A model generated the notes under the pieces. The model had not been told where the DNA came from. It saw only the letters and a list, made by a program, of their open reading frames with translations, and did no database searches. The translations under genes were made by a program, and so were the position numbers. From the NCBI GenBank assembly GCA_903831815.1, contig CAIKZC010000009.1, positions 69,576 through 114,432 on the forward strand: a stretch of DNA of 44,857 nt, in the 5' to 3' direction. Shown piece after piece: positions 16,657 to 40,766 of the stretch (the stretch's first letter is position 1; each line of letters begins with the position of its first letter). The DNA is from an uncultured bacterium. Lineage in GTDB: Bacteria; Patescibacteriota; Minisyncoccia; Phycocordibacterales; UBA11359.

Positions 16657-16708
16657 AAAGATAGACTCGGGAATGTCCCGTGGCACAAACAAGAAACGGA
16701 GGCTCAAA

Positions 16709-17059
16709 ATGACGAGCATTTTTGTAACGAGAGACCCTAAGGTGATAACTGATGAGGTTTTGTGTCTCATCCACAAAACTTTGGTGGAAATAGTTGTTCG
16801 GCACTTAAACGGGCTGTATGGCAAATTCATTTCCCCAGACAACCTGGAGGCTCGATTTACGGATTATGGTCCCCTCGACATCAAGAAGTACGATCTGTCG
16901 ATTGTGGTCTGGATGAAAGGCGATCCTAACCACACCAGCTGTATTTACCAACGCACCGCGCTTGTCGCCCGAGAAATTGCGAAATTCACACCGCTCGGAC
17001 AGAAAAGTCTTTACATTAGCGTTCGCTTTTATTCTGGCGATGAGTACAGTACCAGATAA
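16709..17059 (+). CDS. Unknown 116-residue protein (SD-led cassette)
   Basis: No family is recognised. The protein alternates helical and strand-like segments (EVLCLIHKTLVEIVVRHL; YDLSIVVWMKG; KSLYISVRFYSG), suggesting a compact alpha/beta fold with no membrane span. ATG 16709 is set by CGGAGG (16697-16702) 6 nt upstream; an in-frame start at 16673 lies before the SD and is rejected. It has a private promoter and a terminator shared with the end of the convergent mreB paralogue. Confidence 0.7.
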   Translation: MTSIFVTRDPKVITDEVLCLIHKTLVEIVVRHLNGLYGKFISPDNLEARFTDYGPLDIKKYDLSIVVWMKGDPNHTSCIYQRTALVAREIAKFTPLGQKSLYISVRFYSGDEYSTR

Positions 17060-20976: not shown

Positions 20977-21666
20977 GTGCCTTCGAACTGTTTTTTTACA
21001 AGGGTGTTGTGTATGGATATACAAACAGGGCTTGTCCGAACTAGTGACACTTCTGTACTGACAATGCGTGGAGCGCAGCCAGATGTGCCGCCGGTAACAG
21101 ACGGCGTTAGTTGGGAAGAAATGTGCCAGAGAGAAGGTCATCAACTGGAGATTGATGTCTTTGGCTTTAGCCCAACCTATGATCCAGACAAGATTAGTGC
21201 TTTGCGAGCACAGAAACCGACGTTTTACAGATCAGTGGTGGAGATCTCAAACCGACAGGCGGAACTCGACTGGTCGGCCAAGCATCCTAGCACTGATTTG
21301 GCGGATAACCTTTTCCAGGCAGTGAGCAGAGGATTGCCAAGAAGACTCAAGAGTCAGTTGATGTTTTGCTGTGCACTTGGGACTGTGGTGGATTACTTCT
21401 TTGGAGCCGATGGGTTTCTCGTTCTCGAAACAGCCAGAAGATGTCCTGTGACAATCGACTTGGTGCGAGCCAGAAACTACTGGCAGATACAGAAGAAAAA
21501 GTCCGATTGGCTCATGACCAGGGAAGATCTCGAGGATTACAAGAAAATCCAGAAGTATGGGCTGCGCATGGCACAACGCCTGATCGAGGTAGACGAAGCG
21601 AGAACGGCCAGATTGACAGGAAGAAGGTGGAGAGAAAGGCCTGTCAAAATGATGTTCTGGCATTGA
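20977..21666 (+). CDS. Unknown 229-residue protein (SD-led cassette)
   Basis: No family is recognised. The N-terminal half is mixed; the middle is helical (DNLFQAVSRGLPRRLKSQL, then a hydrophobic Cys-containing helix), and the C-terminal 60 residues are highly charged with many Arg and Lys, suggesting nucleic-acid contact. The start is uncertain: GTG 20977 with AAGGAG (20962-20967) 9 nt upstream, or ATG 21013 with a weaker AAGGG. Private promoter and terminator are present. Cassette genes 12820 and 23778 also have basic or charged C-terminal tails. Confidence 0.65.
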   Translation: MPSNCFFTRVLCMDIQTGLVRTSDTSVLTMRGAQPDVPPVTDGVSWEEMCQREGHQLEIDVFGFSPTYDPDKISALRAQKPTFYRSVVEISNRQAELDWSAKHPSTDLADNLFQAVSRGLPRRLKSQLMFCCALGTVVDYFFGADGFLVLETARRCPVTIDLVRARNYWQIQKKKSDWLMTREDLEDYKKIQKYGLRMAQRLIEVDEARTARLTGRRWRERPVKMMFWH

Positions 21667-23777: not shown

Positions 23778-24287
23778 ATGTCGGAATCAGCTAGATTGGA
23801 CGCACTCGAGAAACAGATTGAAACGAGAAAAGCATTTCTGGCAAAAGTGCTGCCTTTTGTGCTTGAAATCGTTCAGGTCTTTGGGGCGGTCAAAACAAGA
23901 GATGTAAGAAGTAATAACACTCACGTCGTAACCGAACTGTGTTACGGTGGATTCCTTTTCAAAACCGATATCGGGCAATCAATGATGGGCGGCAACTCCA
24001 TCGTGGTAACTTACTCAGGAACAATTGTACTCTGGGTTGACAACAACGCCGACGAAAACTTTGGTGTTAATGAGTGTCGAATCAGGGCCTTCAGTGATCC
24101 TGGCGACGGTTGCCATCGAACACTTCTACATATGGCAGAGGAGAAGGTCGAAACAATGGTCATTATTGCCGATGCCATCAAAAAGCAAAATGAGAAAAAG
24201 ACCGAGAAGGAAGAGCAGGAGCTCGCTCAGGTGAGGAGAAAGCGACAGCTTTTGATCGACGCCGAGCGTCTCGGATTGTCAGTCTAA
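23778..24287 (+). CDS. Unknown protein with coiled-coil tail (SD-led cassette)
   Basis: A 169-residue protein. A short N-terminal helix is followed by a beta-rich core of about 80 residues (VVTELCYGGFLFKTDIG; SIVVTYSGTIVLWVDN) and a C-terminal helix with heptad-like, highly charged sequence (KKQNEKKTEKEEQELAQ). No family is recognised. ATG 23778 follows AAAGGAG (23765-23771) by 6 nt. Private promoter and terminator; it sits between priA and def. Confidence 0.72.
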   Translation: MSESARLDALEKQIETRKAFLAKVLPFVLEIVQVFGAVKTRDVRSNNTHVVTELCYGGFLFKTDIGQSMMGGNSIVVTYSGTIVLWVDNNADENFGVNECRIRAFSDPGDGCHRTLLHMAEEKVETMVIIADAIKKQNEKKTEKEEQELAQVRRKRQLLIDAERLGLSV

Positions 24288-27814: not shown

Positions 27815-27843
27815 TTGACACACATCATTAAATAATGTACTTT
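27815..27843 (+). promoter_or_regulatory. Promoter of the 27910 gene
   Basis: Perfect TTGACA (27815-27820) and TACTTT (27838-27843), spacing 17, with TG directly before the -10. Confidence 0.7.
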
Positions 27844-27909
27844 ACATCTTGGAAGTTTGCTCTTGGAGTGTTTTCAAGGCAATTAAGGGTAATTAGCAAA
27901 GGAGTCACC

Positions 27910-28494
27910 ATGCCACTCGTACGTCTTGTCCATAAGGGAGTCAGATTCCCAACGCCCACTCGATTAGAGAAGATCAAGGGGATAATCAAGGAAATCGTCG
28001 CTGGAGCGCTGACTTGTCCTGACTCCGGCGGTGAACTGGTTCCGAAGGAAGTGGAAGTTGAAGTGAAGGTTAGCGAACTCGGCGACTCCCTTCACGAACG
28101 TTATGCTGTCATGTTCTATATCGACGCCAACGACTTCCCATCCCGCAAGGAGAATCTGCAGTCGAGGAGTAACGCTATTGCCGTGAAGATCAGCACGATC
28201 CCGGAGTTCCATGGTATGAGCGGGTTCGTCTGGGTCAGACTTTTCCCTGCGGCATTCACCGATTTTGCTCAGACCGCGCAATACGCCAAGTTGCTCGAGC
28301 AATTCGAACAGCGCCGCACCAAGAACCGCAAAATCAAGAGGAAGGACAACACCTCGCTCCGAGCCGGGTCGCCGATGTATTTCTACTGCGTTGGGTGCGG
28401 CGCCGAAATGACCGTACCGGAGAATTACACGGCACGAGCATCAAGCCACTGCGATGCATGCGGTGAACTGAAAAAATTGGGTTTGCTGAAATAG
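27910..28494 (+). CDS. Unknown protein with C-terminal zinc ribbon (SD-led cassette)
   Basis: A 194-residue protein. The N-terminal part is a mixed alpha/beta domain of about 110 residues; a basic linker (EQRRTKNRKIKRKDN) leads to a C-terminal zinc ribbon with CVGCG and CDACG knuckles 23 residues apart. Zinc ribbons of this sort bind nucleic acid or proteins. ATG 27910 follows AAAGGAG (27898-27904) by 5 nt; a longer frame from 27835 starts before the SD, inside the promoter. Near-identical 26-nt direct repeats flank the unit. Confidence 0.75.
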   Translation: MPLVRLVHKGVRFPTPTRLEKIKGIIKEIVAGALTCPDSGGELVPKEVEVEVKVSELGDSLHERYAVMFYIDANDFPSRKENLQSRSNAIAVKISTIPEFHGMSGFVWVRLFPAAFTDFAQTAQYAKLLEQFEQRRTKNRKIKRKDNTSLRAGSPMYFYCVGCGAEMTVPENYTARASSHCDACGELKKLGLLK

Positions 28495-34359: not shown

Positions 34360-34372
34360 AAAAGGAGTGGTT

Positions 34373-35920
34373 ATGAGGATCGCGAGACTACTGGCAGCTA
34401 TTGCAACTGTTGAGCCGTTGGAGTCACGCACACTTTTGAGTGCGTTGCCTTGGACAGCGCCGGATGGTACGGACACGTTGTTCGACGCCGAGTTCAATAC
34501 CGGCAAGGTGGTTGATGCGAGTCTAATGCACCAACCGACTTGGCGCGGCAACGGTGATGGAACTTTTTTGGGTCAGACCCAACTGACGGTTACCCAGGAT
34601 GGGATGCCCATCAAACAAAGTGGTGGCATGGCCAGGATGACACTGAATAAGTGGACTCCGAGCATGCTACCAGGACAGCCGGCTTTTCACGGAACGCAAC
34701 TCACCACGAACGATACGTTCCAACTTGGCGCCGATGGCAGTACCCTCACGTTTACGTGGCGGGCCAAGCTGAACACGACCACCAAAGGAATGGTTGTGGG
34801 GTTGTTCGTTTACTACTTCAATCCGGATGGCACGCATGACGAGATCGATTTCGAACTCGTTACTAACTGGAACGGCACAAGGTCCGTTCCGGGCGTGAAC
34901 ACCAACGTCTATTCGGACGAGGCACTCGGGGTAGGTATCCCCCAGTTTGTCAGTATTCCCAAAATGGGAAAACCGACTGGGTTTCATACCTACAGCATTC
35001 AGGTTTCGCCGACAAGCGTTATCTGGATGATCGATGGAAGCATCGTCAGGACTGAGACCGACAAAGTGCCCAGTGGTCCCGTACAGGGATACATCAACAT
35101 GTGGGTGCCGGGCAGAGAATGGCCTGATGCTTACAACGTGAAATTGAAGCCGGTCAGTAGCAAACGCGCCGATCAGCAGTTCAGCGCTTCGGTTGACTAC
35201 TTCAGAGTCACTTCGGTGACTCCGGAGATTCCGTTTACGGTCACAGACGCCTCGGTTCAAAGTGCAACGACCGAAGTAGATCAAGGAAACCCGATTACTG
35301 CGAACGGAACCGTACTTGGAACCGGCAACGGCACGGTGAACTACGCTTGGATGGTTCAAGGCGATAACGACGCCAATCCACAGCAAATCAGTGGTCTGCT
35401 TTCGGCGAACATGATGAATGGCAGCGCCAACATTCCCGACTTTACCGGTCTGCCGGTAAATGTTTCCGGACCGTATCAGGCCTGGATCGATATCACCGAT
35501 CCTGATGGTGAGATGCTTTCAAGCGACTCGTTCTCGTATTCCGTCAACTATGTTGCCCCGGGCATTTCTTTCACTTACGTTCCGCCTCTTGGGAACGGAA
35601 GCAATGTGACGGGGATAGTGACTGGCGGAAACCTGAGCGAGTATGCCGGCGTGGCGCTATACTTGCACGTACCCGGATACAGTCTGGATCCGAGCGTTAC
35701 AAGTGGCTGGTGGACGAAGCCATACTTCACTTCACCTCTCACTTCGATCAATGCGAATGGTACATGGAGTGCCGACGTTGTTACCGGTGGCATCGATCTC
35801 AACTACGGCGTCGAAATCATTGCCTATTTGATTCCGGTTGGATTCGATGTTCCTACGACAGGTGGAGGAACTTTGCCTGCCTCGCTGTCGGAACTGCTGT
35901 TCGTGAAAGTTTCCCGTTGA
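34373..35920 (+). CDS. GH16-like secreted protein with LEPR-XLL-type N-terminus (SD-led)
   Basis: A 515-residue protein. Residues 13-24 (VEPLESRTLLSA) match the N-terminal LEPR-XLL signature best known from Planctomycete exported proteins. Residues 35-275 form a jelly-roll domain with the GH16 catalytic motif E157-I-D159-F-E161 in HDEIDFEL and several aromatic residues, suggesting hydrolysis of beta-1,3/1,4-glucans or a related sugar. Residues 285-390 look like an Ig- or PKD-type domain, and the last 120 residues form a further beta domain. ATG 34373 follows AAAGGAG by 5 nt. Base use is higher in G and C than in the neighbours. Transfer from another phylum is inferred. Confidence 0.85.
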   Translation: MRIARLLAAIATVEPLESRTLLSALPWTAPDGTDTLFDAEFNTGKVVDASLMHQPTWRGNGDGTFLGQTQLTVTQDGMPIKQSGGMARMTLNKWTPSMLPGQPAFHGTQLTTNDTFQLGADGSTLTFTWRAKLNTTTKGMVVGLFVYYFNPDGTHDEIDFELVTNWNGTRSVPGVNTNVYSDEALGVGIPQFVSIPKMGKPTGFHTYSIQVSPTSVIWMIDGSIVRTETDKVPSGPVQGYINMWVPGREWPDAYNVKLKPVSSKRADQQFSASVDYFRVTSVTPEIPFTVTDASVQSATTEVDQGNPITANGTVLGTGNGTVNYAWMVQGDNDANPQQISGLLSANMMNGSANIPDFTGLPVNVSGPYQAWIDITDPDGEMLSSDSFSYSVNYVAPGISFTYVPPLGNGSNVTGIVTGGNLSEYAGVALYLHVPGYSLDPSVTSGWWTKPYFTSPLTSINANGTWSADVVTGGIDLNYGVEIIAYLIPVGFDVPTTGGGTLPASLSELLFVKVSR

Positions 35921-36422: not shown

Positions 36423-37100
36423 TTAGGAGATTTTTAATTTATAACCTACGCCACGCACGGTTTCCAAGAGACCGTGTTTTCGGCCTTTGTCGATTTTTTC
36501 ACGAAGCCGAAAAATGTAAACCTCTAAAGCATTGGTGAAATTGTCGTAATTGATATCCCAAACATTATCGGTTAAATTAACTCGCTCAATTACAGTGTTG
36601 GGCCGACGCATAAAATATTCGAGAAGTCGGAACTCCTTCAAAGTTAGTTCGATCTCCTTTCCATCTCTAAAAAGTTTTTTAGTATTTAAATCAAGAAGCA
36701 GATCGGCAACTTTTAATTCCGATTTGAGCAATTCCGCCGGACGTCTAGTCAAAGCCATGATCCTAGCGAACAATTCCGAAAAATGAAAAGGCTTGATCAT
36801 ATAATCGTCCGCGCCACTATTTAGCAAAAGCACTTTACTTTCCGTTTCGCCTCTGGCCGTAAGTATCAAAACCGGCGTCTTGATGCCAGCTTCACGAATA
36901 TTTCGACAAACTTCATAACCCGGTTTTTTAGGCAACATCAGATCCAGAATAATAAGATCATAGTCGGCATGATTAAGTTCAATCTTGTTTTGACCCACTT
37001 CACCGTCAGCGGCATGATCAACAATATATCCTTCACCTTTCAATCCCCTTCTTAGAAGATCGGCCAATTTCTGCTCGTCTTCGACAATGAGTATTCTCAT
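36423..37100 (-). CDS. OmpR-family response regulator
   Basis: A 225-residue two-component regulator. The receiver domain has the acidic pair in VEDE, phospho-acceptor D53 in LILDLMLP, T81 and a KPF lysine near residue 103. The C-terminal winged helix has TLKEFRLLEYFMRRPN and the final VRGVGYKL. It is downstream of the receiver-radical SAM gene and of the histidine kinase on the same strand, but has its own promoter. Confidence 0.95.
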   Translation of the reverse strand: MRILIVEDEQKLADLLRRGLKGEGYIVDHAADGEVGQNKIELNHADYDLIILDLMLPKKPGYEVCRNIREAGIKTPVLILTARGETESKVLLLNSGADDYMIKPFHFSELFARIMALTRRPAELLKSELKVADLLLDLNTKKLFRDGKEIELTLKEFRLLEYFMRRPNTVIERVNLTDNVWDINYDNFTNALEVYIFRLREKIDKGRKHGLLETVRGVGYKLKIS

Positions 37101-37174: not shown

Positions 37175-37205
37175 AAAAAAAGGCGGCCGAACTAGTCGTA
37201 CCGCC
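37175..37205 (-). terminator. Terminator of the receiver-radical SAM gene
   Basis: GGCGG (37182-37186) pairs with CCGCC (37201-37205); a seven-T run follows on the minus strand. Confidence 0.78.
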
Positions 37206-37234: not shown

Positions 37235-38755
37235 CTATTGATAACTACAACTCTGCTCAAAGTCGCCTATTGTCTGACCACAACCATCGTTAATATTGCC
37301 GTATATTCTCCTGAGCCTGATTTCGTTCTGAACACCAGCCTCACGCAACATCCGGCAAAAATTCCTTGCTTCCGCCGTCGTAACATCATTGTCGGCGAGA
37401 TCTAGATCCCCTTTCTTTCTCTTAGACACTTTGTACCTGAGCATCGCAAATCTTCTATACCGACGTGCGAAGGCAATCGCGTCTTCACGGGTGGCATTGA
37501 ACTTCGAAAGGGTGATGGATATAGTGATACCTGGTCTGCCTGGCGACTCATGCCAAATCGCTCGATACCTCGCCAAAATCTCGTCCAAGTCATCGTCTTT
37601 AGATCCTGGCTGGAGAATTTTCCTCTTCCAAGGTATCGCAGAATCCACGCTCCAGTGGTGAGAAGTTCTGGGTAACTTTGCATACCCCTGTCGAAGGAAA
37701 TATGCAAGTTTCTCAGAATCACCGATCGACGTGATAACGAAGTAAAACTGCGGGATCTCGATCTCCGCTAACCGCTTGATGGCCTCGGCACAATTGTCGA
37801 AGTTGTCCGAGGGTTCTCCTTCACCAGAGAAGTAGAGAACAACCCTTTTGGTGACCACCTTTGTATCCAACATCTCTCGAAGCAGGGTACTGTGATTCAT
37901 TGCCAAATAAGGCTGAACAATGATCTCGTTGGCGGTAAAGGACCGAACGAAAGCGACACCTTTTCCAGACGCATCGATGTGATGTTTATGTGCCCGACAC
38001 TTTGGGCACATATGCCGACAACCAAGTGCGCATTGCACCGCGATCGACACTGCATGGGGGTCATCCTCCTTGGGATAGACATACGTATTCAAACAAAAAT
38101 AGGCCCCATCCACTTGCACCTGGGAGGTGATTTTCTCCCCATCATCTCGACCTTTGTCGCTTGGCCTGGTCGTAATACGATTTACACCGCAAATTATCGC
38201 ACTACCCATAGGTATCGACATCCTCCATCGATTCACCTGAAGGTTCCATGAGTAAATGTTCTTGCGTCTCGGCTGCAACAGACCGTTCACCACTTCGATC
38301 AAGTATTTAGGATGATTTATGAATCTCCCCAGATCCTTGAGCATGATTTCGTCCGGCACAAATGTAAGCAGCCCGACTCTAACATGCTCGGCACTGATGA
38401 TGAGAACATTCATTCGCGGAATGATATCCATTACACGCCGAACTAAACCTTCACCAATCTCTGTTCCAACATTGAGATCGAAAATCCCCAAGTTAAATGG
38501 CTTATGAGCCTTCAGGGAGTCCAGAGTGGCTTGGTTCGCCATTGCGATACTCAAAACGCAGACTATCTTCTTGCCAAGCTTTTTCAAAGCGTGAGTTAGA
38601 ACCCAAAGAGTATTTGGATCGTCATCAACGATCAGGATGCTGCCATCCTCACTAGACTCGTTGATAGTGACCAAACCATCTGATTCCCGAAGGTTGGCAA
38701 GAAACTTGAGCCTTCCGGCTTGATGCTCCCTGCGCTCAGTATTTGACGTAATCAT
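37235..38755 (-). CDS. Receiver domain fused to RlmN-like radical SAM enzyme (SD-led)
   Basis: A 506-residue fusion. Residues 39-160 form a response-regulator receiver: D44-D46, phospho-acceptor D93 (GIFDLNVG), S121 and K140. Residues 236-506 resemble RlmN/Cfr methyl synthases that methylate C2 (or C8) of adenine in rRNA and tRNA: VQCALGCRHMCPKC with C242, C246, C250 and C253, FSGEGEPSDNFDN (GxGEP SAM motif), and a terminal NDGCGQ whose C492 matches the methyl-carrier Cys. The iron-sulfur motif reads CX3CX2C from C246, or CX3C-X3-C in the RlmN register, so one residue is inserted. ATG follows AAGGGG by 6 nt. Own promoter and terminator; located between a histidine kinase and an OmpR regulator. 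Confidence 0.8.
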   Translation of the reverse strand: MITSNTERREHQAGRLKFLANLRESDGLVTINESSEDGSILIVDDDPNTLWVLTHALKKLGKKIVCVLSIAMANQATLDSLKAHKPFNLGIFDLNVGTEIGEGLVRRVMDIIPRMNVLIISAEHVRVGLLTFVPDEIMLKDLGRFINHPKYLIEVVNGLLQPRRKNIYSWNLQVNRWRMSIPMGSAIICGVNRITTRPSDKGRDDGEKITSQVQVDGAYFCLNTYVYPKEDDPHAVSIAVQCALGCRHMCPKCRAHKHHIDASGKGVAFVRSFTANEIIVQPYLAMNHSTLLREMLDTKVVTKRVVLYFSGEGEPSDNFDNCAEAIKRLAEIEIPQFYFVITSIGDSEKLAYFLRQGYAKLPRTSHHWSVDSAIPWKRKILQPGSKDDDLDEILARYRAIWHESPGRPGITISITLSKFNATREDAIAFARRYRRFAMLRYKVSKRKKGDLDLADNDVTTAEARNFCRMLREAGVQNEIRLRRIYGNINDGCGQTIGDFEQSCSYQ

Positions 38756-38857: not shown

Positions 38858-38885
38858 ATACTACGACTAGTTTAGGCCTTGTCAA
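38858..38885 (-). promoter_or_regulatory. Promoter of the receiver-radical SAM gene
   Basis: Perfect TTGACA (38880-38885) and TAGTAT (38858-38863), spacing 16. The -35 overlaps the last codons of the kinase gene. The leader is about 100 nt. Confidence 0.7.
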
Positions 38886-40026
38886 CCATCTGGTCATCAG
38901 GATCAAAATCGTAAGGCAAAAAGACGGTGAAGGTGCTACCTTCCCCCACTTTACTTGACACAGAAATTTTTCCGTGGTGCGTTTCAACGATGTTTTTGCA
39001 GATGGCCAAACCCAATCCGGAATCCCCCAAATTTCTGGTTCTAGCTTTATCGATTCGATAAAAACGTTCGAAAATATTCGCAAATTCCTTCTTAGGAATT
39101 CCTATACCGCTATCCTGAACATGGAATATGACGCCTTCTTTGGTTTTTTCAGTCCAGACTTTGATCCAACCATTATTTTTATTATAACTTATGGCGTTTC
39201 TAACCAAATTTAAAATCAATGTTTTCAATTCATCTTCATTCCCAAGTATTTTAACCTTAGACTTATTTACTATATGCTCAATTTTTATTTTTCTATTTTC
39301 GGACACAGCTTTTAGTCCCTTACAAACACTTGCGATTAATTCATCGAAATCAATTTTTTTAAAAACCGAATGAGTTACTGGAACATCATTCGAGGTGAGA
39401 AAGGTTAAATCTGTTAACATTGTAATCATTCTGTGGATCTCAGAGTCAATGTTTTTGGATAATTCAAAATCAACCTTTTCCGACCTATTCATTAAATCCA
39501 GACTGCCGTGCATGATTGCAAGCGATGTTCTAAATTCATGAGAAACATCTTCAATAAAAACGGATTTCAGTTTTGAAATTCTGATCAATTCCTTATTGGC
39601 GTTATCAAGCTCCTTGGTCCTCTCTCGAATATCAGCTTCCATACTTTCGTTTAATTCGGCAAGCTTGTTCCTAAAAGTGATCGCTTTCGTGTTATCGGAA
39701 GCCATTGAAATGACACCTTCAATCTTTCCTTTAGTATTTCTAAACGGAACAGCCAAAATGTCGAGATAAATCTCTTCGCCTTTATTGTTAATATCATGAC
39801 AATTGTCCTTGCGAAAAACTCCGCCATTCTTCAATATTTTTTTGTATTCCTTAACTAGATTTTCGTTTTTAAAAAATTCACCTTTAAAGACATTGTGCTT
39901 TTTATAGTCCCTGATTCTAGAGATTTTTTTATAGTAATTATTGGCAGAGGTAATAAAACCTTTTTTATCGATCGTTATGACACTGATCGGTATGTTGTCC
40001 AAAATTATTTTATCAATTTTGTCCAT
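38872..40026 (-). CDS. PAS-containing sensor histidine kinase
   Basis: A 384-residue kinase with no membrane span. A PAS domain (about residues 5-115) is joined by a coiled coil to the dimerisation domain, with H163 in VSHEFRTSL (Ser replaces the usual Pro after T). The ATP-binding domain has NLVRNAISYNKN (N box), DSGIGIP (G1) and GLGLAICKNIV (G2). It senses a cytoplasmic signal. Likely partners are the OmpR-type regulator and possibly the receiver-radical SAM protein. It is 11 nt downstream of a methyltransferase gene. Confidence 0.93.
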   Translation of the reverse strand: MDKIDKIILDNIPISVITIDKKGFITSANNYYKKISRIRDYKKHNVFKGEFFKNENLVKEYKKILKNGGVFRKDNCHDINNKGEEIYLDILAVPFRNTKGKIEGVISMASDNTKAITFRNKLAELNESMEADIRERTKELDNANKELIRISKLKSVFIEDVSHEFRTSLAIMHGSLDLMNRSEKVDFELSKNIDSEIHRMITMLTDLTFLTSNDVPVTHSVFKKIDFDELIASVCKGLKAVSENRKIKIEHIVNKSKVKILGNEDELKTLILNLVRNAISYNKNNGWIKVWTEKTKEGVIFHVQDSGIGIPKKEFANIFERFYRIDKARTRNLGDSGLGLAICKNIVETHHGKISVSSKVGEGSTFTVFLPYDFDPDDQMVDKA

Positions 40027-40037
40027 AATTAATTAGA

Positions 40038-40766
40038 TTAAATCTTTACGGCTTTGATCCAAAGAGCTTTGGGAATCGTAAGTCTATTTTTTAATTCGGG
40101 GTATCGGCGAACTAGATTTAGTGAAGGTCTGGGTTCGGTGATCTTTGAGATCAAAAAACCGGCTTTAGTTATAGAACCGACAATATCGCTTAGGGTCCAA
40201 TGAAAATCCTTGTATTTGGTTTCCTCCCCATCTATGCGTGTCGAGACAACTTCGATAAGGGTACCGCTAGAAAAATAATTAAAATTATTATTGACCCTAA
40301 AATTTTTTGTTCCCAATAAAGCCGCCAAAGGATGCAGATCGCTTATGATAATTATTCCGGATTTCTTTAATAATTTATATGATGCAGACATTATGGAATC
40401 GATCTTCTTTAAGGAAGGAATTTCCAACAGAACATGCTCAATTAGAATAACATCATAGTAGGATTTCTTTAATCCGGACCTTTCAAGTTTGGTGATGTCT
40501 CCTTTTATGTAAGTAATTTTTGGATTATTTTTATCAGCCAATTTCAATTGTTCCTCCGAGATCTCAATGCCGGTACAGATCGCGCCGCGTTTCGCCAATA
40601 GCTCCAGCCAGTAACCATTTCCCGAACCAAGTTCCAGTATCTTTTTGCCGCTAATATTACCACCGAGCATTCTTTGCAATTCCGCCTCGCCAACGTACTT
40701 TTTACCAAAATTCGGTATTTGTGCGCTTTCAGCCTGTGTCTTGTTCCAATTATGGTTGTTGTTCAT
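40038..40766 (-). CDS. Class I SAM-dependent methyltransferase
   Basis: A 242-residue methyltransferase with motif I ILELGSGNGYWLELL (about residues 43-57), the motif II acidic residue in GIEISEEQ, and the later IKGDITKL. Substrate is unknown; the fold resembles small-molecule (UbiE/Methyltransf_11 type) enzymes. It is in an operon with the histidine kinase and diverges from a small membrane gene. Confidence 0.88.
   Translation of the reverse strand: MNNNHNWNKTQAESAQIPNFGKKYVGEAELQRMLGGNISGKKILELGSGNGYWLELLAKRGAICTGIEISEEQLKLADKNNPKITYIKGDITKLERSGLKKSYYDVILIEHVLLEIPSLKKIDSIMSASYKLLKKSGIIIISDLHPLAALLGTKNFRVNNNFNYFSSGTLIEVVSTRIDGEETKYKDFHWTLSDIVGSITKAGFLISKITEPRPSLNLVRRYPELKNRLTIPKALWIKAVKI

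Follow-up and report, generated by a model that had tools for sequence, protein, structure and literature searches.

A kinase-paired fusion of a response-regulator receiver and an RlmN-lineage radical SAM core in Patescibacteria

Two-component systems act mostly on transcription. In this study, we asked what a histidine kinase might control when its neighbouring gene encodes a receiver joined to a radical SAM core. The gene lies in a 44,857-nucleotide stretch of DNA (the window) from the genome of a patescibacterium (G000; 0.78 Mb, 10 contigs); it runs from 37,235 to 38,755 on the minus strand and is an open frame of 506 aa. The initial annotation, made from the letters alone, had read it as a receiver fused to an RlmN-like core and had proposed that a kinase controls RNA methylation, or another radical SAM reaction, by phosphorylation.

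The receiver covers residues about 38–160 (38,276–38,644) and was recovered by Pfam (PF00072), by profile matches to PDB sequences, by Foldseek and by alignment. In the single window protein the Response_reg match had an E value of 1.5e-4, and all five homologues described below matched both Response_reg and Radical_SAM. The site residues are D44, D45, D93, S121 and K140, and D44–D46, D93, S121 and K140 stand at the positions given in the initial annotation. The RlmN/Cfr-type core covers residues about 207–495 (37,271–38,137), and it carries GEGEP at 311–315, corresponding to the GxGEP motif that had been noticed, and CGQ with C492. Its score against TIGR00048 was 27.5 bits (E 1.4e-6), far under the curated cut-off of 290 bits. 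When a profile of the five fusions was compared with PDB sequences, it matched RlmN 6fz6 (3.5e-25), Cfr 9p0p (4e-22) and E. coli RlmN (1e-14), and many receivers at 1e-7 and weaker. The AlphaFold2 model of the window protein had a moderate pLDDT of 66.5 and a pTM of 0.65, with the C-terminal loop below 50; Foldseek returned RlmN 6fz6 first (5.8e-14), followed by E. coli RlmN and Cfr, and matched CheY-like receivers separately. The Cx3Cx2C cluster motif inside a radical SAM fold places the protein in the radical SAM superfamily (Pfam, alignment, Foldseek). As the initial annotation had supposed, the receiver stands in place of the N-terminal helical RNA-binding domain of RlmN, which is missing from the fusions.

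The gene order given in the initial annotation was also confirmed, with all members on the minus strand. A soluble PAS histidine kinase of 384 aa (38,872–40,026; Pfam HisKA, HATPase_c and PAS) lies 116 bases upstream, and an OmpR-type response regulator identified by domain match (36,423–37,100) lies downstream, beyond an intrinsic terminator with a GC stem and T run (37,175–37,205; -15.1 kcal/mol, z -2.55). A class I methyltransferase (40,038–40,766, minus strand), 11 bases upstream of the kinase, is not conserved at the other fusion loci. Elsewhere in the window, the plus-strand gene at 34,367–35,920 encodes a GH16 family protein (Pfam 2e-15) with a GC content of 0.53 and a GC3 of 0.60, against 0.43 GC for the window. 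We take its N-terminal stretch, VEPLESRTLLSA, to resemble a motif common in secreted proteins of Planctomycetes, and the gene has possibly arrived by gene transfer. Four short ORFs (16,673–17,059, 20,977–21,666, 23,778–24,287 and 27,835–28,494) have GC3 values of 0.51–0.62, above most household genes measured; the one that was scanned, 20,977–21,666, had no Pfam match.

Other receiver–radical SAM fusions, a search for which the initial annotation had suggested, were sought by profile searches over about 1,300 genomes. Four more were found, all with the same Cys spacing, so that the five known fusions belong to four families, two orders and one class of Patescibacteria. The additional carriers are G001 (same genus as the window genome, 34% identity), G116 and G335 (other families of the order) and G922 (another order of the class). 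The five proteins are 20–34% identical to each other, and every frame is open and full length; a chance ORF or chance domain match is ruled out by these homologues. They form one clade in the tree with support of 100/99, which indicates a single origin of the fusion. Fusion branches are generally long, and that of the window copy reaches 2.51. A phage or plasmid origin was rejected, since no full-length relative was found in viral contigs (single-protein queries) or plasmids, and the further viral matches inspected contained no receiver. The G335 genome also encodes a 1128-aa leucyl-tRNA synthetase (L021:2070-5456, minus strand) in which two NUDIX insertions surround the editing domain.

The pairing with the kinase is constant. 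Each of the five fusion genes is immediately preceded, on the same strand, by the gene for a soluble PAS histidine kinase of one subfamily. These kinases are 46–50% identical end to end, PAS included, the G001 copy being only partly readable (masked bases), whereas the closest of the remaining kinases in the order align over the catalytic core only, at 37–41%. Among 297 genomes of the order and 315 of the class, close relatives of the kinase (E < about 1e-47) occurred only in fusion-bearing genomes; the exception near this threshold was one core-only match (6e-47) in G164. These results show that the kinase-paired receiver–radical SAM fusion of the RlmN lineage is real and conserved. Because the genes are paired in all five loci, we infer phosphotransfer from the cognate kinase to the fusion. 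The kinase may serve two outputs, the fusion and the OmpR-type regulator, because three loci also have a gene of the latter type close to the kinase: in the window it is downstream, in G335 it is upstream of the kinase with one gene in between (58% identity), and in G922 it directly precedes the kinase (41%). In G001 the orthologue (69%) is located elsewhere in the genome, and the G116 fusion locus has no OmpR-type regulator adjacent to it. In G335, a small RelA/SpoT-type synthetase (L021:12124-12777, plus strand) is encoded on the opposite strand, between the genes for the OmpR-type regulator and the kinase.

Studies have shown that RlmN uses a catalytic Glu105, a resolving Cys118 and a methyl-carrier Cys355, and that E105 and C118 help the Cys to be methylated and the RNA crosslink to be resolved, C118 being essential for the second step (PMC9692996). 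We compared these positions in an alignment of 94 proteins, consisting of the five fusions and 89 non-fused RlmN-like proteins. The canonical [4Fe-4S] motif C246-x3-C250-x2-C253 (37,997–38,020) was present in all 94, and the fusions share the longer form GCxxxCxxC (G-C246-RHM-C250-PK-C253 in the window). All five fusions also keep a G-[ED]-type SAM motif, N420, S369, R378 and P383; together with the triad, this argues for a retained [4Fe-4S] cluster and SAM site. C492 in DGCGQ (37,280–37,282) is the equivalent of C355, which is Cys in all 89 non-fused proteins and in four of the five fusions, being lost in G335. In contrast, E105 is Glu in 87 and Asp in 2 of the 89 non-fused proteins and is N, V, N, S and R in the fusions, and C118 is Cys in 87 and Gly in 2 of the 89 and is A, S, S, E and G in the fusions. 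RlmN-type methylation (m2A/m8A) by the fusions appears unlikely, because E105, C118 and the RlmN N-terminal domain are all missing. The initial annotation had expected altered chemistry from an extra residue in the Cys cluster, but it had read the cluster in the wrong register, beginning from C242 of CALGC, an extra Cys without conservation among homologues. The chemistry still looks altered for another reason, namely that every fusion lacks E105 and C118. C242 was also considered as a substitute for C118 and was rejected, being unconserved and sitting at -4, not -7. In G1095, an RlmN-like protein (L084:1321-2226, minus strand) has an insertion ahead of its cluster motif (TGKCGRSCGFC), and a second match lies on another contig of that genome.

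The receiver gave a mixed result. In the alignment, the window, G001 and G116 fusions have an intact acidic pair, Asp, Ser/Thr and Lys. The G335 receiver retains the Asp but has lost the acidic pair and has Ala for the Ser/Thr and Arg for the Lys, and the G922 receiver has lost the phospho-acceptor Asp itself. The initial annotation had staked its reading on RlmN kinship of the C-terminal half and on conservation of the receiver Asp residues: the kinship was found, and the Asp residues are conserved only in part. Only for the three fusions with an intact site is control by phosphorylation plausible as the best reading. Because the G335 and G922 receivers are degenerate and C355 is lost in G335, neither control by phosphate nor Cys chemistry is universal among the five.

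We believe that these genes form a dedicated two-gene module in which phosphorylation by the kinase controls an RlmN-derived radical SAM enzyme, likely not an m2A/m8A methylase, and we give this reading a probability of about 50%. It builds on the observed domains and motifs, the single origin and the constant kinase pairing, and it predicts phosphotransfer, gating, active catalysis and an altered reaction. The cytosolic PAS histidine kinase would sense an internal cue and autophosphorylate on its H-box His, and the phosphate would pass to D93 of the receiver. The phosphorylation state of the receiver would then gate the radical SAM domain, through substrate access or through ordering of the C492 loop. 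The domain itself would bind a [4Fe-4S] cluster and SAM and keep the methyl-carrier Cys position; without equivalents of E105 and C118, adenosine methylation of the RlmN/Cfr type would most likely be absent and another radical SAM reaction would take place instead. In the G335 and G922 lineages, the degenerate receiver probably just docks to the kinase. Of the original proposal, kinase control stays plausible for three of the five fusions, whereas the m2A/m8A part is weakened. More tentatively, we speculate that the phosphorelay gates radical chemistry directly and that the scaffold, lacking E105 and C118, now carries out a new reaction; it might leave a lasting Cys-methylene adduct on RNA or protein, or it might alkylate a target other than RNA. 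Further points count against a controlled enzyme: the long branch of the window copy could be a sign of relaxed constraint, the adjacent OmpR-type regulators could be the main target of the kinase, and confidence in the structural model is only moderate.

A rival explanation, which we consider rather doubtful, is that the radical SAM domain is a non-enzymatic Fe-S/SAM sensing or regulatory domain and that the receiver is a docking module, so that the protein would inform the kinase or the OmpR-type regulator of redox or SAM status. The loss of E105 and C118 in every fusion, the loss of C355 in G335 and the two degenerate receivers would fit such a sensor, as would the OmpR-type genes at three loci and the far better conservation of the kinases (46–50%) than of the fusion proteins (20–34%). 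However, the SAM-binding and cluster motifs persist in all five despite this low identity, the C355-type Cys persists in four, and three have an intact receiver site.

An adenosine methylase under kinase control, acting like RlmN or Cfr on C2 or C8 of adenosine in 23S rRNA or tRNA, is unlikely. The nearest solved structures are indeed RlmN and Cfr, four fusions keep the C355-type Cys, no canonical RlmN was found in the window genome, and in Enterococcus faecalis RlmN is already known to act as a stress-linked switch, being inactivated by ROS (PMC10336011). Against this stand the absence of E105 and C118 from all five fusions, compared with the keeping of both in 87 of the 89 others, the essential role of C118 in resolving the crosslink (PMC9692996) and the missing N-terminal domain. 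There is also no need for a replacement: of 58 genomes from the order, just 2 had a canonical RlmN above the cut-off, and G922 carries an ordinary-length RlmN-like protein (348-aa frame) besides its fusion. For these reasons the fusion is not simply a regulated housekeeping RlmN, and a role as its replacement is a weak candidate. The decay of a transferred gene pair, with the fusion drifting without selected function in some hosts, would suit the patchy distribution (one genome with a fusion in each of the G116 and G335 families), the long branches and the motif losses in G335 and G922, but it is improbable given five open full-length frames, each paired with an intact kinase, and motifs kept across deep divergence.

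If the two-gene module is read correctly, its output appears to be an RlmN-lineage radical SAM enzyme, which would give minimal-genome Patescibacteria a signal-dependent radical chemistry in a two-gene test case, and this chemistry could perhaps touch RNA or protein modification. Proteins that have naturally lost C118 and E105 but kept C355 also offer an evolutionary test of rebuilding the RlmN mechanism.

Compared with known systems, the fusion resembles RlmN (TIGR00048; PDB 3rfa, 5hr7 and 6fz6) in its radical SAM core, canonical Cx3Cx2C, GxGE/D motif, overall fold and C355-type Cys within a flexible C-terminal loop, and differs in having a receiver for the helical RNA-binding domain, in lacking E105 and C118, and in its profile score (27.5 versus 290 bits). 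Cfr, the C8 methylase of A2503 in 23S rRNA (PDB 9p0p), shares the core and was the second best profile match; unlike Cfr, the fusion has a receiver, lacks the same catalytic residues and has no known link to resistance here. Phage RlmN-like proteins (L096, L105 and relatives) fall on the same side of the tree as the fusions (99/99) and likewise lack the RlmN N-terminal domain, and L105 and L107 also lack C118; however, they have neither receiver nor kinase, and the L096 group retains E105 and C118. The viral proteins of L105 and L107:3821-4606 (plus strand) are short (261 aa), with Gly at C118, Asp at E105 and the CG motif kept. The initial annotation knew of no such architecture, and our literature search, which covered mainly open-access papers, likewise returned no receiver–radical SAM or receiver–RlmN protein. 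Receiver–enzyme fusions of narrow distribution are a known kind, and archaeal cases have been reviewed (PMC5847659). Like the REC–metabolic enzyme regulators described there, our proteins place a receiver ahead of an enzyme and have a narrow phyletic range; in contrast, two of the five receivers here are degenerate, and a radical SAM/RlmN-type output is not named in the parts of that review consulted. The fusion would belong with the response regulators that have an enzymatic output, as a variant with an output of the radical SAM/RlmN type.
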